Assembly: GCA_022785125.1 (NCBI GenBank)
Contig: JALFRA010000034.1
Location: 1 to 39,728, forward strand
Length of the DNA stretch: 39,728 nucleotides
Direction of reading: 5' to 3'
From: Clostridiales bacterium
Lineage (GTDB): Bacteria; Bacillota; Clostridia; Oscillospirales; Oscillospiraceae
A program made the translations under genes and the position numbers. Under the pieces are notes generated by a model. It ran no database searches and was not told where the DNA came from. It worked only from the letters and a program-made list of their open reading frames with translations. Shown here one piece after another: positions 21,657 to 38,614 of the stretch; position 1 is the stretch's first letter; each line of letters begins with the position of its first letter.

Positions 21657-21659
21657 ATC

Positions 21660-22469: not shown

Positions 22470-22507
22470 GGTATAAACTCCTTATTTCATCATAATTAAG
22501 ACAGAAC

Positions 22508-22540
22508 AGGCGGCCCAGCCTGAAGCCGGACCGCCTGTCA
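22508..22540 (-). terminator. Terminator after the radical SAM gene
   Basis: Bases 22508-22521 pair with 22527-22540; two plus-strand mismatches become G-U pairs in the minus-strand RNA, followed by TCTGTCTTAATT. It probably marks the end of the large sigma-54 operon. Confidence 0.75.
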
Positions 22541-22550
22541 AATCCGCATA

Positions 22551-23451: not shown

Positions 23452-24792
23452 TCAGCGTTGATTGGACCTGCGCCAGATGCCCATGGCCCCGGCCTGGGCG
23501 ATCAGCTCCTCCCGGAAATCGGGGTGGGCCACGCCGATGATGGCCTCCGCCCGCTGCCAGGTAGCCAGCCCCTTCAGGTTGGCAATGCCGTACTCAGTGA
23601 CCAGATAGTGGATATTGGTACGGGTGTCGGTGACCACGGAGCCCTCCCGCAGGGTGGGCCGGATACGGGACTCCAGCGTGCCGTCCTTGCTCTTCACAGT
23701 GGAGGAGCAGCAGATAAAGCTCTTGCCGCCCTTGGACAGGTAGGCGCCCAGCACAAAGTCCAGCTGCCCGCCGGCGCCGGAGATGTGCTTGGTGCCGGAG
23801 GTCTCGGCATTGACCTGGCCGAACAGGTCCACGTCCACCGCGTTGTTGATGGAGATGAAGTTGTCCAGCTGGGACACCACCCGCACGTCGTTGGTGTAGT
23901 CCACCGGAGTGCTCATGCAGGCCGGGTTGTTGTCCAGATAGTCGTACAGCTTCTGGCTACCGGCGGCAAAGGCATAGGTCTGCCGTCCCCGGTCGATGCT
24001 CTTCCGGCTGCCGGTGAGCTTACCCGCCATGGCCATGTCCACAAAGCCGTCCACATACATCTCGGTGTGGACGCCCAGGTCCTTCAGATCGGACTGGGCA
24101 ATCATGGAGCCCACGGCGTTGGGCATACCGCCGATGCCCAGCTGGAGGCAGGCCCCGTTGGGGATCTCCGCCACGATCAACTTGGCCACCGCCTGATCCA
24201 CCTCGGTGGGCGCGCCGGCACCTAGGGTCCACATGGGGGCGTTCTCCCCTTCCACCACATAGGTGACGTCGGAGATGTGGACGCCCTCGCCCACGCCGCC
24301 CAGGCAGCGGGGCATATTCTCATTGACTTCCACGATCACCATCTCCGCCTGCTCGCACAGGGTCTTCAGGTGGGAAGCGTTGGGGCCGAAGTTGAAGTAG
24401 CCCGCCTTGTCCATGGGAGCCACCTGGAACATGGCCGCCCGGATGGGCTCGGCCATATTGCGGTAGTAGCCGGGCATTTCAGAATAACGCAGGGGGATAT
24501 AGAAGCTGGCGCCCTCGGCGATCATCTTGCGCTCCACGCCGGACATATGCCAGGAGTTCCAGGTGAAGTGCTCCGCCACGTCGGGCACCTGCATGATGGC
24601 GGGCTTTTCAAACAGCACGCCGCCACGCACCTTTACATCGCTCAGTTCAGTATAACGGGCCGCCAGGGCGCGGTCAAGTACCCGGGGCGTGCCGGTGCAC
24701 CAGCCGTAATCCACCCAGTCGCCGGAACGAACCACGGACACCGCCTGTTCCGGGGTGGTCAGCTTCTCTTCATAGAGTTTCCGAAAATCCAT
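23452..24792 (-). CDS. Butyryl-CoA:acetate / 4-hydroxybutyrate CoA-transferase family
   Basis: This 446-residue family I-type CoA-transferase resembles clostridial butyryl-CoA:acetate CoA-transferase (But) and 4-hydroxybutyrate CoA-transferase. It transfers CoA between an acyl-CoA and acetate through a glutamyl-CoA intermediate. The likely catalytic glutamate is E244 in VHTEMYVDG; the CoA-binding [10 protein letters not shown] loop is at 219-228, with [15 protein letters not shown]-like text further on. It sits at the end of the caiB-BCCT-etf operon, where it could release the pathway's acyl product with gain of acetyl-CoA, or activate the substrate. Preference among butyrate-type acids cannot be read from sequence. 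Confidence 0.88.
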
Positions 24793-24821
24793 ATATCATG
24801 CTTCTCCTCTCGCGGGGCGCC

Positions 24822-25706
24822 TCATGCCCACTGGAATACGCCGCGGTCCAGCACTGCTTTCCCGGTGGTCTGATTGAGGAAGCGGAAGCAGGCCTTCCCC
24901 TCCTCCATCTTCCACAGCTGGAACTTCACCGGGGTGCCCGGGTAGAGGACAGAGGTCATCTGGGCCGCCATACGGCGCATCCGCTCGGGCTGGCCGGGGA
25001 TCAGAGCCCCGATGGCCATCCGGCAGGAGAAGCCGAAGGAGCAAAGGCCCTGCATACAGGAGCTCTCAAGGCCCATCTTGCGGGCATAATCGGGGTCCAC
25101 GTGAATCAAATTGGTGTCGCCGGTGAGCCGGTAGAGCAGATGCTGCACGGGGCTGATATAGTCCTCCTCCTCATAGTCGGGAGCCCGGTCGGGAATGACC
25201 ACATCGCTCTTGGGCATGGGAGGGCCGCCGAAACCGCCCGCCTCATGGAAGAAGGTGGTGGAGCGGTTGGTACACACCAGGTTGCCCGCCTCGTCCCGCA
25301 CGTCCAGCTGGGTCTTTACCACAGCGCCCCGGCCTTCTCCCCGGTCGTACACATCGGTGATCCGATCTTGGTACTGGAAGGTACCCTTGATGGGGTCGAT
25401 GGGCCGGTGCATGATGATCTCATGGTCCATGTTCAGGAAGGAAATGGTGGGCTTGATGATCTCGTTGGCCAGCATGGAGGCGGGCAGGGGCATCCACTGA
25501 TAGGGGCGCACGTTGATGGTGCCCCAGTAAGGGATGGTGCCGTAGGTGGGCAGCGCCTTCATATTTTTCTCATAGGTATACATCAGATCGTCCTGCTTGG
25601 CGCCCACAGCCAGGGCGTAAAGGGCGACATCCCGCCAGTTGTACTCCAGATAGCGGGGCTCCATCCGCTGTCCCACCAACAGCTCGGCCAGATTGACTCG
25701 TTCCAT
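24822..25706 (-). CDS. MaoC-type 2-enoyl-CoA hydratase (double hotdog)
   Basis: This 294-residue protein has two fused hotdog domains like the hydratase 2 part of peroxisomal multifunctional enzyme. The hydratase motif YRLTGDTNLIHVDPDYA contains the catalytic pair D197 and H202; N199 is kept, while the usual NPLH reads NLIH. The N-terminal half (to ~155) lacks the motif and forms the non-catalytic half, as expected. It would add water to, or remove it from, an (R)-3-hydroxyacyl-CoA such as crotonyl-CoA, or crotonobetainyl-CoA if the operon is for carnitine. GGGAGGT lies before the ATG. Confidence 0.86.
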   Translation of the reverse strand: MERVNLAELLVGQRMEPRYLEYNWRDVALYALAVGAKQDDLMYTYEKNMKALPTYGTIPYWGTINVRPYQWMPLPASMLANEIIKPTISFLNMDHEIIMHRPIDPIKGTFQYQDRITDVYDRGEGRGAVVKTQLDVRDEAGNLVCTNRSTTFFHEAGGFGGPPMPKSDVVIPDRAPDYEEEDYISPVQHLLYRLTGDTNLIHVDPDYARKMGLESSCMQGLCSFGFSCRMAIGALIPGQPERMRRMAAQMTSVLYPGTPVKFQLWKMEEGKACFRFLNQTTGKAVLDRGVFQWA

Positions 25707-25730
25707 TGCTTACCTCCCGTTCTAATATAC

Positions 25731-25765
25731 GAGAGAGCACCACGGTGGATCTGTGGTGCTCTCTC
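25731..25765 (-). other. Intercistronic hairpin between acyl-CoA dehydrogenase and hydratase genes
   Basis: A 13-bp perfect stem (25731-25743 with 25753-25765) with a 9-base loop and no U tract follows the dehydrogenase stop. It is more likely an mRNA processing or stabilising element than a full terminator. Confidence 0.6.
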
Positions 25766-25779
25766 TCCCGCAGGAGCAA

Positions 25780-26922
25780 TTACTTCTTCAGTTCCTCACG
25801 GGCGATGATATTCTTCTGGATCTCGGAAGTACCCTCGTAGATCGGCACGATACGGGCGTCGCGGTACATACGCTCCAGGGGGTAGTCCCGCATATAGCCG
25901 TAGCCGGAGTAGATCTGCAGGGCCTTGTTGGTGACCTCCACAGCCATCTCAGAGGCATAGTACTTGGCGATGGCGGCGATCTCGGTGCAGTTCTCGCCCC
26001 GATCCATGGTCATGGCGGCCTCGTAAATCAGCGCACGGGCAGCGGACACCTTGGTAGCCATGTCGGCGATGTACCACTGCAGACCCTGCTGCTTCTCCAG
26101 GGGCTTGCCGAACTGAACGCGGACCTTCAGGTAATCCTTGGACAGGCGCAGGGCCTCCTCGGCAATACCCAGAGCCTGGGAGGCCATGCCGATACGGCCG
26201 CCGTCCAGGGCCTCCATGAAGATCTTAAAGCCCTTGCCTTCCTTGCCCAGCAGGTTGCTCTTGGGCACGCGGCAGTTCTCGAAGATCAGCTCGGACACGT
26301 CGGCGGCCCGGATGCCCATCTTCTCCTCACGCTTGCCGATGATGAAGCCGGGGGTATCCCGGTCCACGATGATGGTGGACATGCCGCTGTAACCCTTGGT
26401 GGGATCGGTGACGGCCAGGATGGTGACGAAGTCGCCCTCGCTGGGGCCCATGTTGGAGATGAAGCACTTGGAGCCATTGATGACCCACTCATCGCCGTCC
26501 AGCACAGCGGTGGTCTGGACATTGGCGGCGTCGGAGCCGGCGTTGGGCTCGGTGAGGGCAAAGCCGGCGATCCAGCCCTTGGCGGAGCCAGTCAGGTATT
26601 TCTCTTTCTGCTCGGGGGTGCCGTACTTGATGATGCCGGTGATGGCCATGGTGTGCACGGCCATCACCTCGGCGGTGCTGGCGCACTGCTTGGCCAGCTC
26701 GGTGACCATGAGGGACTTCTCCATCATGCCGAAGCCGGCGCCGCCGTACTCCTTGGGCACGCCGATGCCCATGAAGCCCATCTTGGCGAGCTTCTCCAGA
26801 ACGGCAGGCTCCATACGCTCATTTTTGTCCATCTCGGCCGCAATGGGGGCCAGTTCTTTATCTGCAAACTCCTTGGCCAGGGACTGGACCATTTTCTGGG
26901 TCTTTGTCAGCTGAAAAGCCAT
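25780..26922 (-). CDS. Acyl-CoA dehydrogenase (EtfAB partner)
   Basis: This 380-residue flavoprotein belongs to the short-chain acyl-CoA dehydrogenase group. It has GFALTEPNAGSDA (substrate/FAD segment), EEKMGIRAADVSELIFE, the RVQFGKPL and GGYGY-like SGYGYMRDYPLERMYRD blocks, and the catalytic base E363 in YEGTSEIQ at the standard SCAD position. It would oxidise an acyl-CoA or reduce an enoyl-CoA with EtfAB, whose genes are immediately upstream. Homologous enzymes in gamma-butyrobetaine pathways eliminate trimethylamine to give crotonyl-CoA, which this one could also do; sequence does not separate the two. AGGAGGT precedes the ATG. Confidence 0.93.
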   Translation of the reverse strand: MAFQLTKTQKMVQSLAKEFADKELAPIAAEMDKNERMEPAVLEKLAKMGFMGIGVPKEYGGAGFGMMEKSLMVTELAKQCASTAEVMAVHTMAITGIIKYGTPEQKEKYLTGSAKGWIAGFALTEPNAGSDAANVQTTAVLDGDEWVINGSKCFISNMGPSEGDFVTILAVTDPTKGYSGMSTIIVDRDTPGFIIGKREEKMGIRAADVSELIFENCRVPKSNLLGKEGKGFKIFMEALDGGRIGMASQALGIAEEALRLSKDYLKVRVQFGKPLEKQQGLQWYIADMATKVSAARALIYEAAMTMDRGENCTEIAAIAKYYASEMAVEVTNKALQIYSGYGYMRDYPLERMYRDARIVPIYEGTSEIQKNIIAREELKK

Positions 26923-26953
26923 GTTTTTTACCTCCTGTATTACTCTGCCCGTC

Positions 26954-28060
26954 TCAGGCCTCGGCCTTGGCGGCCTTGAAAGATGCGATCATCTCGGGGA
27001 CCACCTTGAACAGGTCGCCGCAGATGCCGTAGTCGGCCACCTGGAAGATGGGGGCGCTGGAATTCTTGTTCACGGCGATGATGTGCTCGGAATCCTGCAT
27101 ACCGGCCTGGTGCTGAATGGCGCCGGAAATGCCCAGGGCAATGTAGAGGCGGGGGTGAACGGTCTTGCCGGTCTGGCCCACCTGGTGGTCGGCGGTCATC
27201 CAGCCGTTGTCCACCACAGGGCGGGAGGAACCAACCACGCCGCCCAGGACCTCAGCCAGCTCCTCGGCCAGCTTGATGCCCTTCTCAATGTTGGAGGAGA
27301 TGCCGCGGCCCACGGACACCACCACATCAGCGCCGGTCAGGTCCACCAGCTTGCGGGTCTCCTTGACGATCTCGCGGACCCGGGTGTGCAGGTCGGCCTC
27401 GCCCAGGGTGACCTGGGGGCGGACGATCTCCACGGCGTTGGCCTTGGCCTCGTCATAGGCGTTCTTCTTCATCACGCCGGGACGGACGGTGGCCATGGCG
27501 GGACGGAAGCGGGGGCAGATGATGGTGGCCATCAGGTGGCCGCCGAAGGCGGGACGGGTCATCTTCAGGTCACGGTTGGCCATATCCCAGTTGGTGCCGT
27601 CCACGTCCAGAGTGGAGCTCTCACGCAGGAACTCCACATACTTGGCCACATCCACATCCAGGTGGGTGCAGTCGGCGCACAGGCCGGTGTGCAGACGGGC
27701 GGCGCAGCGGGGAGCCAGATCGCGGCCGATGTTGGAGGCGCCGAAGAGCATGATCTCAGGCTTGTAGGCCTGGACAGCGTCGGCCACCACCTTGGTGTAG
27801 GCGTCGGTGGTGTAGTCCTTCAGCAGAGGAGATTCACACAGGTAGACCTTGTCGGCGCCGTGGCCGCCCAGGTCCTTGGCCAGGTGCTCCACGTTGTCGC
27901 CCACCAGCAGGCCGCACAGGTTCACGCCCAGCTCGTCGGCCAGCTTGCGGCCCTCGGAGATCAGCTCGTAGCTGGTGGGCATCATCACGCCCTGGCGCTG
28001 CTCGCAGAATACCCATACATCTTTAAAGGCGGCAATCTCCGCACTGTTATAAGTTCCCAT
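26954..28060 (-). CDS. etfA: Electron transfer flavoprotein alpha subunit
   Basis: EtfA binds FAD and, with EtfB, moves electrons between the acyl-CoA dehydrogenase and NADH/ferredoxin or other carriers. The 368-residue protein has the C-terminal FAD domain with VGSSRPVVDNGW (276-286), QVGQTGKTV (293-301), GISGAIQHQAGM (310-321) and an AVNKNSSAPIFQVADYGI segment. The N-terminal domain (~12-230) is normal, without the extra ferredoxin domain seen in some clostridial EtfA. It lies between etfB (20-base gap) and the dehydrogenase, the usual etfB-etfA order. Confidence 0.94.
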   Translation of the reverse strand: MGTYNSAEIAAFKDVWVFCEQRQGVMMPTSYELISEGRKLADELGVNLCGLLVGDNVEHLAKDLGGHGADKVYLCESPLLKDYTTDAYTKVVADAVQAYKPEIMLFGASNIGRDLAPRCAARLHTGLCADCTHLDVDVAKYVEFLRESSTLDVDGTNWDMANRDLKMTRPAFGGHLMATIICPRFRPAMATVRPGVMKKNAYDEAKANAVEIVRPQVTLGEADLHTRVREIVKETRKLVDLTGADVVVSVGRGISSNIEKGIKLAEELAEVLGGVVGSSRPVVDNGWMTADHQVGQTGKTVHPRLYIALGISGAIQHQAGMQDSEHIIAVNKNSSAPIFQVADYGICGDLFKVVPEMIASFKAAKAEA

Positions 28061-28080
28061 GATTCAGGTGCTCCTTTCGA

Positions 28081-28881
28081 TTAGATCACGTGCTTGGCGG
28101 CCAGAATACCGGCCAGCTTGTCGGTGGTTTCTTTGCCGCTGCCCTCCAGCATCATGCCGGTGCCCTTCTGGGGAGGCGTAAAGGACTTAAAGATGTTGGT
28201 GGGAGAGCCCTTGAGGCCAATGGTGGTCAGATCGATGAGGGGATCGTCCTTCAGAGCCTCGAAGTCCAGGACGGTGAAGGGCTTCTCGTAGCACTCGCTG
28301 ATGCCCTGCATGGTCATATAGCGGGGATCGTTGAGCTCCTTGATGCAGGTCAGCAGGCAGGGAGTGGTGGTCTCCACCACCATGTAACCGTCCTCCAGCA
28401 TGCGCTTGCACACCACCAGCTCGCCCTCACGGGTCACGTCGGCCACATAGGAGATCTGGGGCAGGCCCAGCTTCTCGGCGATCTGGGGACCCACCTGAGC
28501 GGTGTCGCCATCGATGGCCTGACGGCCGCAGAAGATCACGTCGTCCTTGTCCAGGCCGATCTTCTTGATGGCGGCGGACAGGATCTGAGAGGTGGCGTAG
28601 GTGTCGGAACCGCCGAACTCACGGGCGGACACCAGCACAGCCTCGTCGGCACCCATGGCCAGCAGTTCACGGAGCATACCCTCGGCAGGAGGAGGACCCA
28701 TGGTGACCACGATCACCTTGCAGCCGGTCTCGTCCTTCAGACGCAGAGCGGCCTCCACGGCGTTCATGTCATCGGGGTTGGTGATGGTCTGCATAGAGGC
28801 CCGGTTCAGGGTACCATCGGGATTGACCGCCACCTTGCCAGAGGTGTCGGGAACCTGCTTTACACAAACAATGGCTTTCAT
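28081..28881 (-). CDS. etfB: Electron transfer flavoprotein beta subunit, bifurcating type
   Basis: EtfB is the partner of EtfA. It begins with MKAIVCVKQVPDT and contains AIDGDTAQVGPQ (122-133), a motif that in electron-bifurcating ETFs holds the extra FAD near the NADH site; classic mitochondrial-type ETFs carry AMP there. Family ends such as LDFEALKDDPLIDLTTIGLKGSPT are present, and the 266-residue length suits the clostridial group. The ribosome site (AAGGAG) is 13 bases from the ATG, rather far. Bifurcation is inferred from this motif only. Confidence 0.94.
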   Translation of the reverse strand: MKAIVCVKQVPDTSGKVAVNPDGTLNRASMQTITNPDDMNAVEAALRLKDETGCKVIVVTMGPPPAEGMLRELLAMGADEAVLVSAREFGGSDTYATSQILSAAIKKIGLDKDDVIFCGRQAIDGDTAQVGPQIAEKLGLPQISYVADVTREGELVVCKRMLEDGYMVVETTTPCLLTCIKELNDPRYMTMQGISECYEKPFTVLDFEALKDDPLIDLTTIGLKGSPTNIFKSFTPPQKGTGMMLEGSGKETTDKLAGILAAKHVI

Positions 28882-28898
28882 ATTTTGATTTGCACTCC

Positions 28899-30089
28899 TT
28901 ACTGTACTGTAGATGTATGTGCACGAACGATCCCGGCCGCTTTCAGCCCGTCCACTTCCGTGCCGGACAGGCCCAGGGCGCTGAGGATCTCGTCGGTATG
29001 CTGTCCCAGTCCGGGAGCAGGCATAGCGGTCACGTCCAGGGGGGTGCCGCCCAGCTTCATGGGCGTACCCACCCGGTACAGGCTGCCCAGGACAGGGTCC
29101 TGACCGTCCACGATCATCTCGGCCGCCCGGATCTGGGGGTCGTCAATGATCTCGCTGACAGACTTGAGGGCGCCGCCGGCCAGCTTATTGCCGCCCATGG
29201 CGGCCACCAGCTCATCCTTCTTCCAGGCGCCGGTGATCTTGCCCATCTCCTCGATCAGCTCATCCAGGTGAGCCAGCCGGGCAGCGTTGTCGGCAAAACG
29301 GGGGTCGTCCACCAGCTGTTCGGCGCCCACCAGGGCACAGAACTTCTTCCACTGGCCCTCAGAGCTGATGGCGATGGCGGCATAGCCGTCCTGGGCGGCA
29401 AAGGTGCCCAGAGGAGCCACCTCGGTGTCCTGGTTGCCGTTCTTGGCCACGATCTTCCCGTCGATGGAGTAGTTCATGACAAAGAGCTCCAGCATATAGA
29501 AGATGCAGTCCAGCACGGATACCTCTATCTTGGTACCCTCGCCGGTGGTCAGCTTGTTGAAGAGGGCCATCACGATGCCGGACAGCAGGGCCACGCCGCT
29601 GTAGGAGCCGCCGAAGTCCACGCCGGGCATCATGGGGGGCTCGCCCCGGCGGCCGGTGCGGTCCATCATGCCGCTCATGGCGGTGATGATAAGATCGTCG
29701 GCCAGGTGGTCCTTCAGGGGGCCCTGCTCGCCGAAGCCGGTGATGGAAGCATAGATCACGCCGGGATTCAGGCCCTTGGCGGTCTCATAGTCCAGCACGT
29801 CAGCGCCGTTGGTCACCACCACGTCGCAGGTGGCTGCCAGCTTGCGCAGCAGCTCCGCGCCCTGGGGGGTATTGTAGTCCAGGCACAGACCCTTCTTGTT
29901 GCGGTTGAGTCCGGCAAACAGGGCGCTGGCGCCGTTTTTCAGAGGGCCGCGGGCACGGGCGGGATCGCCGGCGGGAAGCTCTACCTTGATAACCTCCGCG
30001 CCGCAGTCGCCCAGATTCATGGTGCAGATAGCGCCGGGAAGGCCGCAGGTCAGGTCCAGCACCTTAATATCGCTCAGTACTTTTTCCAT
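28899..30089 (-). CDS. CaiB/BaiF CoA-transferase homologue lacking catalytic Asp
   Basis: This 396-residue family III CoA-transferase fold protein has IKVLDLTCGLPGAICTMNLGDCGAEVIKVE at the N-terminus and the usual interlocking-ring layout. The catalytic aspartate (D169 in E. coli CaiB, in T-A-D-Y-F-S-G) aligns with G161 in D-F-G-G-S-Y-S-G, so the acyl-enzyme residue is missing. It shares ADDL..x..MDRTG and LDC motifs with the other Asp-less homologue at 34291-35484. It is 12 bases downstream of an Asp-containing homologue, so a non-catalytic subunit of a heteromeric CoA-transferase is likely. GGAGGTG precedes the ATG. Confidence 0.88.
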   Translation of the reverse strand: MEKVLSDIKVLDLTCGLPGAICTMNLGDCGAEVIKVELPAGDPARARGPLKNGASALFAGLNRNKKGLCLDYNTPQGAELLRKLAATCDVVVTNGADVLDYETAKGLNPGVIYASITGFGEQGPLKDHLADDLIITAMSGMMDRTGRRGEPPMMPGVDFGGSYSGVALLSGIVMALFNKLTTGEGTKIEVSVLDCIFYMLELFVMNYSIDGKIVAKNGNQDTEVAPLGTFAAQDGYAAIAISSEGQWKKFCALVGAEQLVDDPRFADNAARLAHLDELIEEMGKITGAWKKDELVAAMGGNKLAGGALKSVSEIIDDPQIRAAEMIVDGQDPVLGSLYRVGTPMKLGGTPLDVTAMPAPGLGQHTDEILSALGLSGTEVDGLKAAGIVRAHTSTVQ

Positions 30090-30101
30090 GTCCGCACCTC
30101 C

Positions 30102-31268
30102 TCAGATCACGCCGTCGGCCTGGAACTTGGCCAGTTCTTCCTGGGTGTAGCAGGCGCCCAGGATCTCGTCGTTGTTCTGGCCCAGCAGCGGAGCGGTGGT
30201 GAAATTGTCCTCCAGCGCCCCGTTATACTTGATGACCTTGCCCACGGTGAGCACATCGCCCACCCGCTGGTCCACCACGGTGGGCAGCATATTGCGGGCC
30301 TTCAGGTGGTCGCTCTCGATGGCCTCCTCCATGGTGTTCACCGGTCCGGCGGGCACGCCGGCGGCTGCGCAGCGGCTGTCAAAATCGGCGCGGGTCACAT
30401 TGGCCAGGAGGGCCTCCAGCTGGGGCCGCAGGCGCTCCAGATAGGCAGCCCGGCGGCTGTCATTGGTGGGATAGACCTCCGCCCACTCAGGCTTGCCGAA
30501 CGCCTGGCAGAAGGCGGCCCACTGGCTGTCTTCGGTAACGGCCAGGGCCACCCAGCCGTCGGCGCAGGGCAGGATATCGTAGGGGGCCCAGGCGTCATGG
30601 AGATGCCCGGTGCGGGACGCGTTTTCCCCGCAGTTGAGGGCGGCTACCTTCTCTCCCATAACGCTCACCACCGAGTCCAGCATGGAGACCTCCACCCGCT
30701 GACCCTTGCCCGTCTTCTTGGCGTGGTAGAGGGCCAACACAATGGCGGTACCCAGATAAGTACAGGACAGATGGTCGCTGACGTAGCAGCCTACCCGGGA
30801 GGGTTCGTCGCCGGGATAGCCGGTGGCGTCCATAATGCCGCTCTGGGCCTGGACGGCAATATCGTAAGCGATGTAATCCTTCTGGGGTCCCACGGAGCCA
30901 TAAGAGGAAAGCTTACCGTACACCAGGGCGGGATTGATCTTGGAGAGTTCCTCAAAGCCCAGGCCCATCTTTTCCATGGTGCCGTTCTTGAAGTTCTCCA
31001 CCAGTACGTCGGCGTCCTTCACCAGGCGCTTGAGGATCTCCTTGCCCTGGTCGTCCTTCAGGTTCAGGGTAATGCTCTTCTTACCCCGGTCGGTGTAGCA
31101 GTGATAGGCGCTGATGCCGTCAATAAAGGGGGGATAGTCCCGGATGGTATCGCCGCTTCCGGGCCGCTCTACCTTAATCACTTCCGCGCCGTAGTCAGAA
31201 AATTCCGTGTCAGTAAAGGGGTTGATGGTGGTCAGATCCAAAATACGGATCCCTTTCAATGGCTGCAT
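30102..31268 (-). CDS. CaiB/BaiF family III CoA-transferase, catalytic type
   Basis: This 388-residue family III CoA-transferase moves CoA from a donor thioester to a carboxylic acid. It keeps the catalytic aspartate, D165, in G-C-Y-V-S-D-H-L-S, and the family blocks SDYGAEVIKVERPGSGD, NLKDDQGKEILKRLV and a QRVEVSMLD helix. AYD..VQ and MDATGYPG motifs are shared with the other Asp-containing homologue at 33038-34219. The gene follows the BCCT transporter and is paired with the Asp-less homologue downstream. AAGGAGG lies 9 bases upstream of the ATG. The substrate is probably the compound imported by the transporter or its pathway intermediates. Confidence 0.9.
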   Translation of the reverse strand: MQPLKGIRILDLTTINPFTDTEFSDYGAEVIKVERPGSGDTIRDYPPFIDGISAYHCYTDRGKKSITLNLKDDQGKEILKRLVKDADVLVENFKNGTMEKMGLGFEELSKINPALVYGKLSSYGSVGPQKDYIAYDIAVQAQSGIMDATGYPGDEPSRVGCYVSDHLSCTYLGTAIVLALYHAKKTGKGQRVEVSMLDSVVSVMGEKVAALNCGENASRTGHLHDAWAPYDILPCADGWVALAVTEDSQWAAFCQAFGKPEWAEVYPTNDSRRAAYLERLRPQLEALLANVTRADFDSRCAAAGVPAGPVNTMEEAIESDHLKARNMLPTVVDQRVGDVLTVGKVIKYNGALEDNFTTAPLLGQNNDEILGACYTQEELAKFQADGVI

Positions 31269-31303
31269 GAGCTGTCTCCTCCTTTCATGCAGACAGAGAC
31301 ATC

Positions 31304-31336
31304 GCAGTACGGGGGCGCAAATGTCCCCCGTACTGC
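31304..31336 (-). other. Intercistronic hairpin after the BCCT gene
   Basis: A 12-bp perfect stem (31304-31315 with 31325-31336) with a 9-base loop and no U tract lies between the transporter stop and the next caiB homologue. It may set transcript stability or the level of downstream genes. Confidence 0.6.
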
Positions 31337-31342
31337 CGGTTA

Positions 31343-32977
31343 TTATTTTGTATAGCCGGGGATAAACAGAGCCTTCCAGTCGATCTTGTTCTTCTTGGTG
31401 GGTTTGCCCTCCTCGTCAGGCACACCGTTTTCCACATAGTTGTACTTTTCAGGGTTCTTCATCAGCCTGAAGGCGCCGATGATGAGGATGATCTCAATGA
31501 TCATGCAGACCCAGCCGGACAGGTTGGCCAGAATACGGGCGCCGTCCACGTTGGCCACGGACACCATGATGCTGGTGAGGAAAATGAGCACGCCGCCCAG
31601 CACGATCTTAACAAAGGCGCCGGCGATGGGATTCTCCTTGACCTTGTCGCCCTCGTCGCCGGGATGGGTACAGGCCAGGGTACTCATTGCGGTAAGCGAG
31701 GAGTCGGTGTAGGTAACAAAGGAGATCACGATCGCAATGAGGTACAGACCGGTCGACACCTGAGGCCAGGGCAGTGTATCAAACAGTTTATAGGGCAGGG
31801 TGTTCTGGCCCAGGTTATACATGGCCTCGGTCAGGCTGTGGCCGGTGGCGATATCCTGATAGATGGCGGTGCCGGACAGGAAGGTCATCCACACAATGGA
31901 GAAGATCACAGGCCCAAAGAACAGCACCTGGATCACCTCGCGCAGGGTACGGCCGCGGCAGAGGGAACCCATAAACACGGGGGCAAAACAGATGGCGGAC
32001 ATCCACACGGCAAAGTTGTAGTTGATCCAGTCAGGGAAGAAGGTATCGCCGGAGGCAACGCCGGTGGCCAGAGACTGCTGGAAATAAGTATGGATGAACT
32101 CGCCGGTGCCCTCGATGCCCAGGTTGAGCACATAGGGCACATTGGTGGTACAGATCAGGAAGATGACCAGAATGAAGTACAGGCGCATATTCAGGTCGGA
32201 CAGCATCCGGATGCCGGAGAGGATGCCGGAGATGGAGGAAATGATGGCGGGCACCACGAACAGAACGCCGATGGAGATCAGCAGGGTGGTGGTGGTATCC
32301 CAGCCCATCAGGTACTTGGCGGCGCCGGACAGGTTGAACATACCCTGAGCCAGAGAGGCGCACATGGCGCACACGTTGACGAACAGCAGCACGGAAGAAA
32401 TGGCCGTAAACCATCTCTTGCAGCGGTTCTGGCCCAGCACGGGCACCAGGGTGGACACAATGCCGTAGGGCTGCTTCATGTTGAAGTAGACAAAGGCAAA
32501 GATAATGGCGGGCAGGGCGTAAATGCCGTAGGGCTGAGCGGTCCACTGCAGGAAAATAGTGGACATGGTCTTTACAATGGCCTGGGGGCTGTTAGGCTCC
32601 ACGCCCCACATGATGGGGGGCTCGTTCACATGGAGGATGGGCTGCACAATGCCCCAGTACACACAGCCGGTAGCAATGGTGGTGCAAAGGGTAATGGCAA
32701 ACCAGTTCCACTTGTTCATCATGGGCTTGGCGTCCTTGCCGCCCAGCTTCACTTTACCCAGAGGGGAGAAATAGATGGCCAGAACCGTCAGCACGCACAG
32801 CAGGGACACCAAGCTGGCCGTACCGCCCAGATAGGAAATGGATGTCTTCTGGATCCCCATCAGGAAGTTTACAAACTCATCGGGAATGATCACACTGATG
32901 GTGGTAATGGCAACCAGCAGAATGAGGGCGGGCCACAGCAGTTTGTGGTTGACCCCTTCGGTGGCTTTTTTCAACAT
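31343..32977 (-). CDS. BCCT-family betaine/carnitine/choline-type transporter
   Basis: This 544-residue transporter has about 12 membrane segments and belongs to the BCCT family (BetP, CaiT), which moves compounds with quaternary ammonium groups. GIRMLSDLNM and the CRGRTLREVIQ loop are family hallmarks. The substrate-binding helix just before that loop differs from the usual pattern: where BCCT proteins have Y-W-x-W-W, this one reads N-F-A-V-W, so two of the aromatic cage residues are changed. I chose the ATG at 32977, with AAGGAGAG 7 bases upstream, over the frame extending to 33019. It lies between two caiB-like pairs. Confidence 0.88.
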   Translation of the reverse strand: MLKKATEGVNHKLLWPALILLVAITTISVIIPDEFVNFLMGIQKTSISYLGGTASLVSLLCVLTVLAIYFSPLGKVKLGGKDAKPMMNKWNWFAITLCTTIATGCVYWGIVQPILHVNEPPIMWGVEPNSPQAIVKTMSTIFLQWTAQPYGIYALPAIIFAFVYFNMKQPYGIVSTLVPVLGQNRCKRWFTAISSVLLFVNVCAMCASLAQGMFNLSGAAKYLMGWDTTTTLLISIGVLFVVPAIISSISGILSGIRMLSDLNMRLYFILVIFLICTTNVPYVLNLGIEGTGEFIHTYFQQSLATGVASGDTFFPDWINYNFAVWMSAICFAPVFMGSLCRGRTLREVIQVLFFGPVIFSIVWMTFLSGTAIYQDIATGHSLTEAMYNLGQNTLPYKLFDTLPWPQVSTGLYLIAIVISFVTYTDSSLTAMSTLACTHPGDEGDKVKENPIAGAFVKIVLGGVLIFLTSIMVSVANVDGARILANLSGWVCMIIEIILIIGAFRLMKNPEKYNYVENGVPDEEGKPTKKNKIDWKALFIPGYTK

Positions 32978-33037
32978 GTACAATCTCTCCTTATCCAATC
33001 TTCTGAAATATCCCAACACATACCTGCTGCAGCTTGA

Positions 33038-34219
33038 TCACACCACTCCTTCCCGGTGCATGGCGGCGATCTGCTCGGCGTTGTACCCCAGCTCTTCCAG
33101 GATGTGGTCGGTATCCTGACCCAGCAGGGGAGCGCCATTGCGCAGCACAGGGGGAGTCAGGCTCATCTTCATGGGGTTGGCCATGTTCTTGTGGGTACCC
33201 AGGCCGGGATCATCGATCTCCCACAGCATCTCACGGGCCATCAACTGCTCGTCATGAACGATCTCGGGCACATTCTGCACGGAGCCTCCGGCCACGTTGG
33301 CCACAGTGAAGACCTGGTCCAGCTCGGCCCGGGTCTTATTGGCAAAGAAGGGGGTGATCTCAGCCATCAGGGCATCGTAGTTGGCCAGACGGTCAGCGTT
33401 GGTGAAGAAGCGGTCGTCACCGGCCAGGCGGGGCTTGCCGATGGCGTTGCAGAAGCGGGCAAAGTCCTCATCGTCGATGACGGCAATGGTGTACAGACCG
33501 TCGGCGCAGGTAAACACATCGTAGGGGGCGAACATGGCGTTACGGGTACCCATGCGGGTCAGGTTCTGGTCCAGCACGGACTTGTAGAGAATGGCGTTCT
33601 CCTCGATTCCGAAGAGGGCGTCCAGCATGGCGATGTTCAGGTTCTGGCCCTCGCCGGTCTTGAGCTTGTGCAGGTAAGCCATCAGGATACCGTTGCACAG
33701 CAGCAGGCCGGTAAAGCTGTCGCCGATGCCGGGGCCCACGCGGCAGGGGTCGCCGTCGGGATAGCCGGTGATATCCATGATGCCGCACATGGACTGCACC
33801 ACGTTGTCGTAGGCGGCCAGCTTCTTGAAGGGGCCGGACTGGCCGAAGCCGGACAGGGAGGCAAAGATGATGCCGGGGTTGATCTCCTTCAGCGCGTCAT
33901 AGTCCAGACCCATCTTGGTCAGAGTACCGCACTTGAAGTTTTCCAGAACGATGTCGGCGTCCTTGGCCAGCTTCTTGATGATGTTCTGACCCTCTTCAGA
34001 GGAGATATCCAGAGTCAGGCTCTCCTTGTTGCGGTTGATGGAGGAATAGTAGCCGCTGTAGTTATTGCGGAAAGGGGTCCACTCACGGGACTGGTCTCCC
34101 ACGCCCGCACGCTCGATCTTGATGACCCGCGCGCCGAAATCAGCCAGCTGCATGGCGCAGAAGGGGCCGCTGTACGCCTGGGTAAAATCAATGACGGTAA
34201 CGCCTTCCAGAATTTTCAT
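33038..34219 (-). CDS. CaiB/BaiF family III CoA-transferase, catalytic type
   Basis: This family III CoA-transferase keeps the catalytic aspartate as D167 in G-P-G-I-G-D-S-F-T-G. It has LADFGARVIKIERAGVGDQ near the N-terminus, NLNIAMLDALFG, and ends in LEELGYNAEQIAAMHREGVV, a common family tail. With the ATG at 34219 it is 393 residues; AAAGGA is 12 bases upstream, and a TTG-initiated longer form from 34255 cannot be excluded. It is closest in motifs to the other Asp-containing homologue in this operon. Its upstream neighbour lacks the aspartate, so the two may form one heteromeric enzyme. Confidence 0.9.
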   Translation of the reverse strand: MKILEGVTVIDFTQAYSGPFCAMQLADFGARVIKIERAGVGDQSREWTPFRNNYSGYYSSINRNKESLTLDISSEEGQNIIKKLAKDADIVLENFKCGTLTKMGLDYDALKEINPGIIFASLSGFGQSGPFKKLAAYDNVVQSMCGIMDITGYPDGDPCRVGPGIGDSFTGLLLCNGILMAYLHKLKTGEGQNLNIAMLDALFGIEENAILYKSVLDQNLTRMGTRNAMFAPYDVFTCADGLYTIAVIDDEDFARFCNAIGKPRLAGDDRFFTNADRLANYDALMAEITPFFANKTRAELDQVFTVANVAGGSVQNVPEIVHDEQLMAREMLWEIDDPGLGTHKNMANPMKMSLTPPVLRNGAPLLGQDTDHILEELGYNAEQIAAMHREGVV

Positions 34220-34290
34220 ATTCTTGCCGAATCCTTTCTTCAGCACCTCTGTCAAAGCAGAGCTGCGCGATTATTTTTCAATGTGTCTGA

Positions 34291-35484
34291 TCAGGCTTCG
34301 CAGATCACGCCGTCTGCCTTCAGCTGCTGGAGCTTGGCCTCGTCATAGCCCAGTCCGCTGAGCACCGCGTGGGTATCGCCGCCCACCAGGGGAGCGCCCT
34401 TCTCGATGGTGCCGGGGGTCTTCATCAGCTTGACCGTGGTGCCGGGGATGGTCACCTTGCCGGCACCGGCGTCCTCCACCTCCACCAGCATCTCGCGCAC
34501 CTTGATGTGCTCGCTGGCCATGGCGTCGGGCACGGTATAAACGGCGGCGCAGGGCAGCTTGGCCTCCCGCAGGGTGGCCTCCATCTCGAACTTCTCCCGC
34601 TGAGAAGTAACGGCCTCCAGCTCAGCCTTCAGGCCGCACTCATAGTGGTCGCCGCGGGACTCATTGGTCATATACAGCTCGTTTTCCGCCAGATCGGTCA
34701 TGCCCAGGGCACAGCAGAACTTCTGCCACTGGTTATCGGTGGAGATACCCACGGACAGGAACCCGTCCTTGGCCTTCAGAGTATCGTAGGGAGAGATGGA
34801 AGGATAGGAGTTGCCGGTACGGGGCAGCACCTTGCCGTTGATGTTGTACACCCAGGGGCCGGTCTCCATCATGGCAAACAGGCAGTCCAGCTCGGACAGG
34901 TCGATCATCTGACCCTGGCCGGTCTTATACTTGTGAATGAGGGCCAGGTTGATGCTGGTGGCCAGATAGGCGGCGCTGATGTGGTTGGCCACGCGGCAGC
35001 CCACGGGGGTGGCCGGGCCGTCGGCAAAGCCGGTGCGGTCCATGTAGCCGCCGATGGCCTGGATGGTCAGGTCGTCCGCCTTCTTGTTCTTGCGGGGACC
35101 GGTCAGCCCGAAGGGAGAGAGGGCGGCATAGATCAGGTCGGGCTTGATCTCCTTCAGCGACTCATAGTCCAGGCCGTACTTCTCCATCTCGCCCACAGGC
35201 AGGTTTTCGCAGACCACATCGGCGCTCTTCACCAGGTCCAGGATGACCTGCTTGCCGGCCTCCGTGGTGTAGTCCACACAGACGCCCTCCTTGCCACGGT
35301 TCATGTAAGTAAAATAGACGCTGTGGCCATTTTGCATGGGGGCCCACTCACGGGCAGGATCGGGGCGGTCCGCCCGCTCCACTTTGATCACCTTGGCGCC
35401 AAAGTCCGCCAGGATCATAGTAGCCACACTGCCTGCGTGCCGCTGCGTAAAATCAATGATTGTCACGCCATCCAATGCCTTCAT
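34291..35484 (-). CDS. CaiB/BaiF CoA-transferase homologue with Asp-to-Asn change
   Basis: First gene of the sigma-54 operon. This 397-residue protein is full length for family III CoA-transferases, with LADFGAKVIKVERADRPD and a GLDYESLKEIKPDLIYAALSPFG block. The position of the catalytic aspartate is N167 in G-C-R-V-A-N-H-I-S, so acyl-aspartyl chemistry should not occur. ADDLTIQAIGGYMDRTG and SELDCLF motifs pair it with the Asp-less homologue at 28899-30089. The second ATG (35484) is preferred: AAAGGAA is 8 bases upstream of it but only one base from the first. Confidence 0.9.
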   Translation of the reverse strand: MKALDGVTIIDFTQRHAGSVATMILADFGAKVIKVERADRPDPAREWAPMQNGHSVYFTYMNRGKEGVCVDYTTEAGKQVILDLVKSADVVCENLPVGEMEKYGLDYESLKEIKPDLIYAALSPFGLTGPRKNKKADDLTIQAIGGYMDRTGFADGPATPVGCRVANHISAAYLATSINLALIHKYKTGQGQMIDLSELDCLFAMMETGPWVYNINGKVLPRTGNSYPSISPYDTLKAKDGFLSVGISTDNQWQKFCCALGMTDLAENELYMTNESRGDHYECGLKAELEAVTSQREKFEMEATLREAKLPCAAVYTVPDAMASEHIKVREMLVEVEDAGAGKVTIPGTTVKLMKTPGTIEKGAPLVGGDTHAVLSGLGYDEAKLQQLKADGVICEA

Positions 35485-35550
35485 AGTCATTTCCTTTCTT
35501 GATCTCTCTAAATATTTTTGTGCGTGCGGTCGTCTCGGCCCAATACATCT

Positions 35551-35566
35551 AGCATCCGGCGTGCCA
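35551..35566 (-). promoter_or_regulatory. Sigma-54 (-24/-12) promoter of the caiB-BCCT-etf operon
   Basis: On the minus strand TGGCACG-CCGG-ATGCT matches the consensus TGGCACG-N4-TTGCW at all but one base, with the required GG-N10-GC spacing. It lies 67 bases upstream of the first caiB homologue and faces away from a sigma-54 activator gene, which supports its use. Confidence 0.88.
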
Positions 35567-35682: not shown

Positions 35683-35733
35683 GTGAATCATTTTTAAAAA
35701 CGCCGTCGCCCTGTATTTTCATAAATGGTTCAC
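35683..35733. promoter_or_regulatory. Candidate enhancer (activator binding) sites
   Basis: GTGAATCATT (35683-35692) and its near-exact inverse AATGGTTCAC (35724-35733) have centres 41 bases apart, about 120-170 bases upstream of the sigma-54 promoter, the usual enhancer distance. The rest of 35491-35860 is AT-rich and holds no convincing gene. Confidence 0.5.
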
Positions 35734-35780: not shown

Positions 35781-35809
35781 TTGAAAACCAGATAAACATA
35801 TGATATTCT
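35781..35809 (+). promoter_or_regulatory. Promoter of the tandem sigma-54 activator gene
   Basis: TTGAAA (35781-35786), 17 bases, TATTCT (35804-35809) with an extended TG at 35801-35802. It lies 51 bases upstream of the activator start. Confidence 0.6.
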
Positions 35810-35860
35810 AACAAAAAATGCTGGTGGTCGTCTCGTCTTTTTCCACAAAGGAGCAGCGCT

Positions 35861-38542
35861 ATGATTAACCGCAATATTTTCCTTCATATGCCTCAGGAAA
35901 TGCTCTCCGCCATTCTGGAGCAGCTTCCCAACCCCGTCTACGCCATACAGGACGACTATACGGTCCTGTATGCCAACCGGGAGGCCCAGACGGTGCTGAA
36001 CGTACATCCCGGCACCCGGTTGACCGATGAGGACGGGGTCTTGATGGCTCCGGGCTGGGAGCGGGGAGAACTGCTCTCCCAGGAGACGGGAATCCAGGAT
36101 ATCTATCGCGTCACCATTGGTGGGATCCGATACCTGTGCTTCCAGAAGTACATCTCAGAGGATATGGACAAATCCATCTTTTCCGTGGTGAGCGTCCAGC
36201 GGGAGGAGCAGGCCTACGACCTCTATTTTGACTGCAAGCGCGATTCCGGTCTCAATTCCGGAGAGCGGCGTTTTCTCTCCTGCTCCGCCCAGATGGAGCC
36301 TGTGCTCCGCAGCTGTGAGCGCTGCGCGCCCAGCGATCTGCCCATGCTCCTGCTGGGAGAATCCGGCTCGGGCAAGACCATGCTGGCTGAATATGTGCAC
36401 CGTCTCAGCAACCGGCGCAGCGGCCCCTTCCTTGTTGTAAACTGCGCCGCCATCGCCAAGGATCTGTTGGAGTCGGAGCTTTTTGGCTATGCGCCCTACG
36501 CCTTTACCAACGCCTCTCCCAAGGGGAAAAAGGGCCTCTTTGAGCTGGCCAACGGCGGTACCCTCCTCTTGGACGAGATCGGAGATATGCCTCTGGAGCT
36601 GCAGGCCAAAATCCTTACCGCGGTGGAAAACCAGACCATTCTCCCCGTGGGCGGTCAGGAGTATCGTCCCATAGACGTACGCATTCTGGCCGCCACCAAT
36701 AAGGATCTGACCGAACTGGTACGGCAGGGAGCGTTCCGGGAGGACCTGCTGTGGCGGCTGAATACGGTGGAAGTCCGCATTCCCCCTCTGCGGGAGCGCC
36801 CCAACGATGTGCTCTATATGGCCAACCATTTCCGCAATGCGTACAACGAACACAACGGTACCGACCTGCGCTTCACGCCGGAGCTCCAGCAATTTCTGCG
36901 GGAGTACGACTGGCCGGGCAATGTGCGCCAGCTGAAAAATACGGTGGAGAAAATGCTCTTTATGGCCCGGGATATGCAAATTCCCCTCTCCGCCGCCAGA
37001 GGGCTTTTCGGCAGCCGCGGCACCCAGTCCTCCACCGCAACCTACGCTCAGCGCATTGAGGAGCGGGAGCGCCGGTTTATCCAGACCCAGTACCGCCGGT
37101 ACCCCTCCACCCGCAAGCTGGCCGCCGCTCTTCAGGTGAGCCAGAGCACCGCTACCCGTCTGATCCGCAAGTACATTACCCCGCCGGAGGGCCACAATAC
37201 CCTTTCGGCCATTACAGAGCACATCCGGCAGGAAAATGCCGCCGGTCGCCTGACGCAGCAGCAGTTCTTCATGATCCTGGACGTGATCCCCAACCGGATC
37301 TGTGTTGTGGACCAGGACCTGGTGTGCATCGCAAAGCGCTACCAGGGCGAATCGGACGACAGTTCCGCCTCCCCCGACACCTTCCTGACCACCGCCATGT
37401 ACCGGGCCGGATATAAAATGGCGGGCATCAAGGGCAGCCCCATTGTTCTGGAGTACCTGACCACCTCGGGCAAGCAGCGCCAGACCATGATCGCGCCCAT
37501 CAACGATATCGTGGGCAAAGGGCTCTTCTACGTCAGCGCCACACAGATCCATTTCAGCCAGGAGACCATTCAGCGACGTATGGAGATCTGCCGCAAGAAG
37601 CGCCGCATCCATGTGGGCAGCAAGGACTTTGTATTCTTCGGCGTATCCCCCGAGATGAATCTGTTCCTCCAGGATGCTGTGCGGTCCGGCTGGCAGGACT
37701 TGTCGGTCCTGATCCGCGGAGAATCCGGCACAGGAAAAAGCGTGTTTGCCCGCTATATCCATGAGGTGGGCAGCCGCCGGGACGGGCCCTTTGTCTCCAT
37801 CAACTGCGCCAGCATTCCCCAGAATCTGATCGAGTCCGAGCTGTTCGGCTACGAGAAGGGCGCCTTTACCGGCGCGGGACCCCAGGGCCGCAAGGGCCTG
37901 TTTGAAATGGCCAACGGCGGCACCCTCTTCCTGGACGAGATCGGCGACCTGCCCCTCAGCGCCCAGGCCAAATTCCTGGACGTGATCGAAAACAAGCGTT
38001 TTATCCCAGTGGGCGGCAGCAAGGTGGTCAACGCCGACGTGCGTATCATCTGCGCCACCAACCAGGACCTGCAGCAGCTGATCCAGCAAAAGAAGTTCCG
38101 GGAGGATCTTTACTGGCGCATCAACGTCATTGAGCTTCAGATCCCCTCCCTCCGCAACCGGGATGATGACATCGAGCGCTACGCGGAATTCTTCCTGGAG
38201 CAGTCCATTGACCGTTACGGCGCCAAAAAGCGCTTCTCCCCCGATGTGATGAGCCTGTTCCTGCTTTACAGCTGGCCGGGCAACCTGCGCCAGCTGGCCA
38301 ATGTGGTGGAGCGCAGCTATATCATGTCCGAGGGCAGCGTGATTCTGCCGGAGGATCTGCCTGCCGAATTCCAGAATACCCAGGACACCTCTGCCGCCCT
38401 ACAGTTCAGCGAGATGCAGCGGCGCTGGGACAACGAGATCATCTCCGACGCCCTCAGCCGCTACGGCACTGCTCAGGAGGCGGCGGCCGCCCTCTCCGTC
38501 AGCAATGCCACTGTGTCCCGCAAGCGGGCCAATCTGTCCTGA
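35861..38542 (+). CDS. Tandem double sigma-54-dependent activator
   Basis: One 893-residue chain holds two complete enhancer-binding-protein modules. Module 1: PAS-like sensor (~17-110), AAA+ domain with Walker A GESGSGKT (166-173), Walker B LLLDEIG (235-241), WPGNVRQL (351-358), and HTH (~415-438). Its sigma-54-contact loop reads Y-A-F-T-N-A (213-218) instead of GAFTGA. Module 2: PAS-like sensor (~467-565), Walker A GESGTGKS (620-627), intact GAFTGA (667-672), Walker B LFLDEIG (689-695), WPGNLRQL (805-812), and HTH (~865-890). There is no frame break or internal stop. It is divergent from the operon with the -24/-12 promoter, which it presumably activates in response to a ligand of the PAS domains. 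AAAGGAG precedes the ATG. Confidence 0.9.
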   Translation: MINRNIFLHMPQEMLSAILEQLPNPVYAIQDDYTVLYANREAQTVLNVHPGTRLTDEDGVLMAPGWERGELLSQETGIQDIYRVTIGGIRYLCFQKYISEDMDKSIFSVVSVQREEQAYDLYFDCKRDSGLNSGERRFLSCSAQMEPVLRSCERCAPSDLPMLLLGESGSGKTMLAEYVHRLSNRRSGPFLVVNCAAIAKDLLESELFGYAPYAFTNASPKGKKGLFELANGGTLLLDEIGDMPLELQAKILTAVENQTILPVGGQEYRPIDVRILAATNKDLTELVRQGAFREDLLWRLNTVEVRIPPLRERPNDVLYMANHFRNAYNEHNGTDLRFTPELQQFLREYDWPGNVRQLKNTVEKMLFMARDMQIPLSAARGLFGSRGTQSSTATYAQRIEERERRFIQTQYRRYPSTRKLAAALQVSQSTATRLIRKYITPPEGHNTLSAITEHIRQENAAGRLTQQQFFMILDVIPNRICVVDQDLVCIAKRYQGESDDSSASPDTFLTTAMYRAGYKMAGIKGSPIVLEYLTTSGKQRQTMIAPINDIVGKGLFYVSATQIHFSQETIQRRMEICRKKRRIHVGSKDFVFFGVSPEMNLFLQDAVRSGWQDLSVLIRGESGTGKSVFARYIHEVGSRRDGPFVSINCASIPQNLIESELFGYEKGAFTGAGPQGRKGLFEMANGGTLFLDEIGDLPLSAQAKFLDVIENKRFIPVGGSKVVNADVRIICATNQDLQQLIQQKKFREDLYWRINVIELQIPSLRNRDDDIERYAEFFLEQSIDRYGAKKRFSPDVMSLFLLYSWPGNLRQLANVVERSYIMSEGSVILPEDLPAEFQNTQDTSAALQFSEMQRRWDNEIISDALSRYGTAQEAAAALSVSNATVSRKRANLS

Positions 38543-38546
38543 ATGA

Positions 38547-38579
38547 TTCCCCCTCGACTCCTTGCGAGCCGAGGGGGAA
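38547..38579 (+). terminator. Hairpin between activator and nitroreductase genes
   Basis: TTCCCCCTCG (38547-38556) pairs with CGAGGGGGAA (38570-38579), with a short inner stem. It starts 5 bases after the activator stop and has no strong U tract, so read-through to the next gene is possible. Confidence 0.6.
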
Positions 38580-38614
38580 GGCATATTTATTACATAGAGA
38601 AAGGAACGATATCC

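Follow-up and report, generated by a model that had tools for sequence, protein, structure and literature searches.

A conserved tandem sigma-54 activator gene with two types of contact loop in a Clostridiales bacterium

Introduction

How many contact loops must engage in the six-loop ring of a sigma-54 activator, and whether its subunits differ in their work, has been approached with engineered linked PspF dimers and by cryo-electron microscopy. A gene from a Clostridiales bacterium (assembly GCA_022785125.1) raises this question in natural form, as it encodes two activator modules in one chain, the first with the variant loop YAFTNA and the second with the canonical GAFTGA. Is the fusion genuine, is the variant loop functional, and what kind of ring might such a protein form? 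The stretch of DNA analysed here (the window) is the entire contig JALFRA010000034.1, 39,728 nucleotides (nt) long, from a genome of 2.97 Mb in 43 contigs.

Results

Two sigma-54 activator modules in one gene

Pfam matches in the open reading frame (ORF) of 893 amino acids comprised two stretches of Sigma54_activat (PF00158, whole-protein E 8.5e-127) and two of AAA_lid_14 (Table 1). A scan of the source genome placed the two domains at 36281-36775 and 37640-38137, in a single 912-codon frame. The modules are 43% identical across 315 residues, from the AAA+ domain through the helix-turn-helix (HTH). Full-length orthologues were found in two genomes of the same genus (G009 and G019, 91% and 82% identity to the window protein respectively) and in one of the same family (G307, 73%). 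The fusion, both loop types and the ATP motifs are common to the four genomes, and the G307 gene lies in a single-contig genome of 3.23 Mb. The main claims of a preliminary description made from the letters alone (two fused sigma-54 activators, intact ATP sites in both, YAFTNA in the first and GAFTGA in the second) are thus borne out, and the joining of two genes by an assembly error, which it had named as a possible flaw, is excluded for the window copy by the three orthologues that share the fusion, one of them on one contig.

The ATP motifs are complete in both modules. Modules 1 and 2 carry Walker A (GESGSGK 166 and GESGTGK 620 respectively), Walker B (GTLLLDEIG 233 and GTLFLDEIG 687), the switch Asn motif (VNCAAI 193 and INCASI 647; LNCAAI in module 1 of G307), sensor I (ATNKDL 278 and ATNQDL 732), the arginine fingers (FREDLLWR 292 and FREDLYWR 746) and sensor II (WPGNVRQL 351 and WPGNLRQL 805). 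The roles given to these residues follow in part the PspF literature. Codon comparison of the orthologues indicated strong constraint on both modules. The G009 copy (locus L115, 8984-6309, minus strand) has an in-frame TAG at codon 571, which is either a draft-genome error or a real break; it would not split the modules cleanly, because it lies inside the second N-terminal region. The frame is open in the window, G019 and G307 copies.

The preliminary description had also read the domain order PAS-AAA+-HTH twice. Both AAA+ domains and the first HTH are firmly assigned. The first PAS and the second HTH are probable: the PAS scores 22.0 bits against a Pfam cut-off of 22.6 in the window and exceeds the cut-off in the orthologous loci L114 and L113. 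A second PAS is unproven, as the second N-terminal region had no Pfam match, PAS included. An alpha/beta pattern was seen there in a model of low confidence only (predicted local distance difference test, pLDDT, of 39-77 over the block), and when the N-terminal regions were compared with each other as profiles, the probability was 0.8% over 28 columns. In sequence matches to structures, PspF chains fitted best on module 1 (residues 147-376) and NtrC1, FleQ and FlrC on module 2. The full-chain structure model (predicted template modelling score, pTM, 0.46) was confident in module 2 and poor in module 1. Module packing was hardly informed, and all 35 other rows of the model's alignment mainly cover module 2. 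By fold, module 2 of the model matches the AAA+ structures of sigma-54 activators.

On its sequence, we place the protein among the sigma-54 enhancer-binding proteins, where its architecture is unusual. PF00158, GAFTGA in module 2, the ATP motifs and a C-terminal HTH are all present. The rule of one AAA+ domain per chain, which is usual but does not strictly define the family, is broken by the two modules; this makes the protein a variant and not a non-member. The lack of GAFTGA that marks TyrR-like sigma-70 regulators does not apply, as module 2 carries this motif.

Rarity and origin of the fusion

Tandem orthologues, the source genome included, were present in 3 of 20 genomes of the genus, 2 of 400 of the family (the source genome and G307), 1 of 394 of the order and 1 of 398 of the phylum (the source genome alone in both; in the phylum with a profile of three tandems at E <= 1e-105). 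These surveys overlap and used strict cut-offs, and at the family, order and phylum levels at most two candidates were scored per genome, so distant tandems could escape. Among 80 fetched loci, no further two-module ORF was found by motif or hidden Markov model (HMM); the two-domain ORFs by HMM were those of the window, L113 and L114. PF00158 matched 121 of 179 phylum genomes. The matches listed included no frame longer than 787 amino acids, but the window's own two domains were also absent from them, which makes this uninformative. The 12 listed of 949 matched plasmid records span about 0.9-1.4 kb, that is, single modules. In this limited search, we met no genome that encodes the two modules separately. 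No precedent for a natural tandem sigma-54 activator was found in a search of open-access papers, with subscription journals mostly uncovered; two papers that mention two AAA+ domains do not concern such a protein.

All eight modules of the tandem proteins fell into one clade in a tree of 75 rows (ultrafast bootstrap/SH-aLRT 96/95), and in a 105-row quick tree the same clade had an SH-aLRT of 95, with a stem of 1.39 for module 1 vs 0.82 for module 2. Because the modules group together in the trees, internal duplication is the simplest origin; probably, though tentatively, one gene duplicated within itself and module 1 then diverged. Fusion of two unrelated activators is disfavoured by the same clustering, within limited sampling and long stems.

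The variant loop is conserved

The loop segments are ELFGYAPYAFTNA (residues 206-218) in module 1 and ELFGYEKGAFTGA (residues 660-672) in module 2. YAFTNA departs from GAFTGA at positions 1 and 5, while F3 and T4 (Phe215 and Thr216), the residues by which such loops engage sigma-54, are retained and invariant in the four orthologues; module 1 also retains a KGKK stretch. ELFGYAPYAFTNA is invariant across the four tandem first modules. Residues 206-226 of module 1 are identical to the window at 21/21 positions in G009, 21/21 in G019 and 20/21 in G307, whereas divergence at silent sites (pS) of the segment is 0.40, 0.39 and 0.60 respectively. The corresponding module 2 segment is identical at 21/21, 19/21 and 18/21 positions. 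YAFTNA appears to be kept by selection rather than decaying, because it is nearly unchanged although silent sites have diverged far.

A loop census of the fetched loci covered 150 AAA+ domains (153 matches, 3 short ones removed): GAFTGA 118 (the second modules of the tandem proteins among them), GSFTGA 11, YAFTNA 4, YAFTGA 1 and other loops 16. YAFTNA was confined to the tandem first modules. The preliminary description had proposed a comparison with other tandem activators; the three orthologues, like the window protein, combine YAFTNA with GAFTGA in the second loop. Outside the tandem proteins, the glycine at position 1 was retained in 137/142 sampled domains and that at position 5 in 133/142. 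The sole other Tyr at position 1 was in a single-module activator of Candidatus Carbobacillus altaicus (L049, 6969-8945), with the loop GYAPYAFTGA. That YAFTNA might be common among relatives was rejected for the sample covered: the 300 family genomes held 14 exact matches to its DNA, and only those in the window and G307 lay in activator frames.

Published work on single-module activators bears on whether such a loop can function. When all 19 other residues were placed at position 5 of NorR (G266), the protein was fully constitutive with Asn or Asp, active and partly regulated with Gln, Ser, Cys or Met, and non-functional with the remainder (PMC2941729). In PspF complexes, the loop Phe contacts and tracks Leu residues of sigma-54, five of the six protomers being engaged, and DNA is touched by Arg/Lys residues close to the motif (PMC9770992). 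A survey of activators gives Asn at position 5 only as putatively functional and does not list Tyr at position 1 (PMC3162934). The preliminary description had called the first loop broken; with F3 and T4 kept, Asn at position 5 active in NorR and Tyr at position 1 in L049, this is not borne out, and the module 1 loop is altered and probably competent.

A divergent operon with a candidate enhancer and sigma-54 promoter

In all four genomes, the activator gene is divergent from an operon of acyl-CoA metabolism. The window operon contains four CaiB-type CoA-transferases, a BCCT transporter, EtfBA, an acyl-CoA dehydrogenase, a MaoC hydratase and a butyryl-CoA:acetate CoA-transferase. EtfB and EtfA exceed the NCBIfam cut-offs for acryloyl-CoA reductase subunits and the acyl-CoA dehydrogenase is under the corresponding one; the butyryl-CoA:acetate CoA-transferase scores above its cut-off. 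The G307 operon starts with etfB, and CaiB and BCCT genes were not found beside its activator. As a guess, the substrate is a quaternary-amine or acrylate-type compound. RpoN is encoded in the source genome.

Conserved blocks in the intergenic alignment were a dyad, an AT-rich block, a -24/-12 element and a 9-mer near the start. The dyad has GTGAACC/TTCAC-type ends and measures 51 nt in the window, G009 and G019, and 49 nt in G307. A pattern built from these sites matched one place in the 2.97 Mb genome (reversed control, 0). By eye, TGAA-N7-T(G/A)AA fits seven of the eight arms of these dyads. The -24/-12 element, scored against a consensus pattern, is clear in three of the four genomes. Another expression matched only the operon site in the window and was written after the site had been seen. 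The window has two copies of the 9-mer GAGACGACC against 0.18 expected (two copies were reached in 3/100 shuffles), with similar copies in G019 (two), G009 and G307; it is possibly the operator of a repressor or of one of the HTHs.

In the three orthologues, sigma-54-like sites are also present at acyl-CoA dehydrogenase/Etf genes that lie on the activator's far side. A 42-nt GTGAACC...TTCAC dyad accompanies them in G019, and a weaker one in G009 (one arm by eye only). This suggests a two-operon regulon. A pattern scan of the source genome gave no second dyad, and the contig ends before the far side of the activator can be read.

Table 1. Features of the tandem activator locus; positions are those of the window unless a locus is named.
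Feature	Position	Strand	Basis or remarks
Tandem sigma-54 activator gene	35861..38542	+	ATG start, 893 amino acids; Pfam, own-genome scan, orthologues
N-terminal sensor region 1, PAS-like	35861..36259	+	residues 1-133
AAA+ module 1	36260..37036	+	residues 134-392; PF00158, AAA_lid_14
Variant L1 loop YAFTNA	36497..36514	+	residues 213-218, module 1; identical in 4/4 orthologues
HTH 1 (HTH_50)	37040..37174	+	residues 394-438; E 3.4e-12, over Pfam cut-off
Linker and N-terminal region 2, PAS-like pattern unproven	37181..37630	+	residues 441-590
AAA+ module 2	37631..38395	+	residues 591-845; PF00158, AAA_lid_14
Canonical L1 loop GAFTGA	37859..37876	+	residues 667-672, module 2; canonical in 4/4
HTH 2, HTH_50-like	38396..38539	+	residues 846-893; 22.4 bits vs cut-off 27
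Divergent operon, presumed target	23452..35490	-	profile matches and synteny; distal end putative
Candidate enhancer (upstream activating sequence), 51-nt dyad GTGAACCATTTATGAAAA...TTTTTAAAAATGATTCAC	35683..35733	.	conserved in 4/4
Candidate sigma-54 promoter (-24/-12) of divergent operon, TGGCACGCCGGATGCT	35551..35566	-	one mismatch to pattern
Candidate sigma-70 promoter of activator gene, TTGAAA-N17-TATTCT	35781..35809	+	by eye; similar block in intergenic alignment
9-mer GAGACGACC	35528..35536	-	just 3' of estimated sigma-54 transcript start
Second GAGACGACC copy	35826..35834	-	3' of activator gene's estimated start
Far-side sigma-54-like site	L114 15674	-	
Far-side sigma-54-like site	L115 857	+	
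Far-side sigma-54-like site	L113 15384	+	
Far-side sigma-54-like site	L113 18527	-	

Neighbouring genes

A ferredoxin-nitroreductase-like ORF (38543-39475) lies directly 3' of the activator stop codon, and an ATG at 38615 may be its true start. A copy 88% identical stands beside the G009 activator; none was found in the G019 and G307 stretches. At the other end of the locus, a CoxE-like VWA protein, a small AAA+ ATPase and a radical SAM protein are encoded at 20454-23420, adjoining the operon on the same strand. EtfA matches occurred in 47/240 family genomes (the source genome included), and none of 12 EtfA neighbourhoods (one being a second copy in the source genome) had an activator domain. 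As fusion-free relatives of the operon they are uninformative, since all have a different acyl-CoA dehydrogenase (45-51%) and belong to other operons.

Discussion

Our preferred explanation, which we hold tentatively, is that the tandem protein binds the dyad and activates the divergent operon, with three chains forming a mixed pseudo-hexamer in which YAFTNA is a specialised loop. The protein would bind the 51-nt dyad upstream of the operon and switch on its -24/-12 promoter. Each chain would join two unlike AAA+ subunits covalently as a dimer, and three chains would close the pseudo-hexamer with modules 1 and 2 alternating, the arginine fingers of each module completing the ATP site of its neighbour. 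Both loops would line the pore, GAFTGA acting as usual and YAFTNA keeping its Phe/Thr contacts with a different shape or regulation. DNA binding, sigma-54 dependence and the role of the loops are what we infer here, together with the ring composition. Taken further, the protein might form an obligate natural hetero-ring, in which the covalent 1:1 pairing makes the two loop types alternate round the pore, three of each, and the labour is divided between them; for example, the YAFTNA loops could be held out and constitutively engaged while the GAFTGA loops perform the regulated power stroke. We regard this stronger form as possible but doubtful; if true, the protein would offer a natural, built-in test of whether the subunits of a sigma-54 activator specialise.

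Several observations weigh against the preferred explanation. Ring composition lies beyond what the full-chain model (pTM 0.46, module 1 poor) conveys. The GAFTDA activator VfmH failed to pull down sigma-54, with the cause left open by its authors (PMC10714721), and the activity of a loop with Tyr at position 1 is presumed. On the DNA side, the dyad half-site fits 14 places in the genome with at most 2 mismatches vs 9 in the reversed control, the -24/-12 pattern has 2 matches in the window vs 1.83 expected, the -12 part is degenerate in G307, and the two second-operon sites of G307 have no dyad. The promoter argument rests on place, pairing and conservation, because neither pattern nor half-site alone is rare. 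Finally, the long stems of both modules leave long-branch attraction possible in the trees, and sampling is limited.

The alternatives concern mainly what module 1 does. It might sit in a mixed ring with a loop that does not engage sigma-54, as an ATPase, assembly or regulatory subunit, leaving the work to the module 2 loops; this was the main idea of the preliminary description. Both widely kept glycines of its loop are changed, its stem is the longer one, and subunit specialisation has been proposed for PspF. By contrast, F3 and T4 are invariant, and Asn is not among the NorR G266 substitutions that kill. The linked PspF dimers (PMC4132715) are informative here: several versions support transcription, and an alteration in one of the two ATP sites need not prevent this, but single-chain wild-type/T86A dimers cannot support it efficiently. 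Its authors explain this failure by a requirement for intact loops in two neighbouring positions. A module 1 loop as dead as T86A should make a poor activator, since a three-chain ring alternates the loops, so evenly spaced dead loops should do harm. These dimers also argue against the mixed ring of alternating active and inactive loops proposed in the preliminary description. We consider a non-engaging module 1 loop somewhat unlikely, and on these comparisons favour a specialised, engaging loop over a dead one. At the opposite extreme, the protein could be a plain covalent dimer of functionally equal modules, with a loop variant that is tolerated and mechanistically meaningless. YAFTGA in L049, tolerance of Asn in NorR and the loop variants reported in 100/490 Clostridiales activators (PMC6615313) are in line with this, but a neutral variant would hardly stay exactly conserved, as YAFTNA does, at 73-91% protein identity and with silent sites so diverged, and we judge the idea improbable.

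Module 1 may instead lie outside the ring, for example as an additional unit for DNA binding or sensing, with autoregulation, or each module may build a homotypic ring, the two rings being separate or, as the preliminary description also suggested, stacked. Both modules come with an HTH, GAGACGACC occurs near both estimated starts, and the dyad arms read as if there were two sites per arm. Trans-acting arginine fingers and ATP motifs would be superfluous in module 1 outside a ring, yet they are kept in the four orthologues, and linked PspF subunits act as neighbours within one ring; we find these arrangements unlikely. A sigma-54-independent, TyrR-like sigma-70 regulator is suggested by the HTH_50 domain, by a match to the NCBIfam TyrR model at residues 13-438 that stays below its cut-off (504 of 576 bits) and by altered-GAFTGA activators, some of which act at sigma-70 promoters (PMC3162934); canonical GAFTGA in all four second modules and the -24/-12-like element before the operon make it very improbable. 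That the gene is an assembly or frameshift artefact or a decaying pseudogene, as the TAG in G009 might hint, is scarcely credible given the three open copies, one of them in a one-contig genome, and the strong constraint on both modules.

The locus offers a ready system for the question raised above: two modules are fused 1:1 in nature, both of their loop types are conserved, and there are one conserved candidate enhancer and a candidate target promoter. Each module presumably has the domain order of the PrdR/TyrR-model activators. Those proteins (NCBIfam) have a single module and this one has two, so summed scores make the cut-offs an unfair test. NorR G266N shares Asn at the fifth position with YAFTNA, but it is a laboratory mutant of a single module with Gly at position 1 (PMC2941729). 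HrpR/HrpS, FleQ/FleT and VnfA1/VnfA3 are likewise thought to form oligomers of two unlike subunits (PMC9542535); they are separate proteins, whereas the ratio here is covalently fixed at 1:1. Closest is the engineered single-chain PspF (PMC4132715), which also has two sigma-54 AAA+ domains per chain, one of them alterable in its loop or ATP site. That construct is man-made, consists of AAA+ domains only and has identical parents, while the protein described here is natural and has sensor regions, HTHs and a conserved loop variant. In this sense, the tandem activator looks like a natural version of the laboratory-built fusion.

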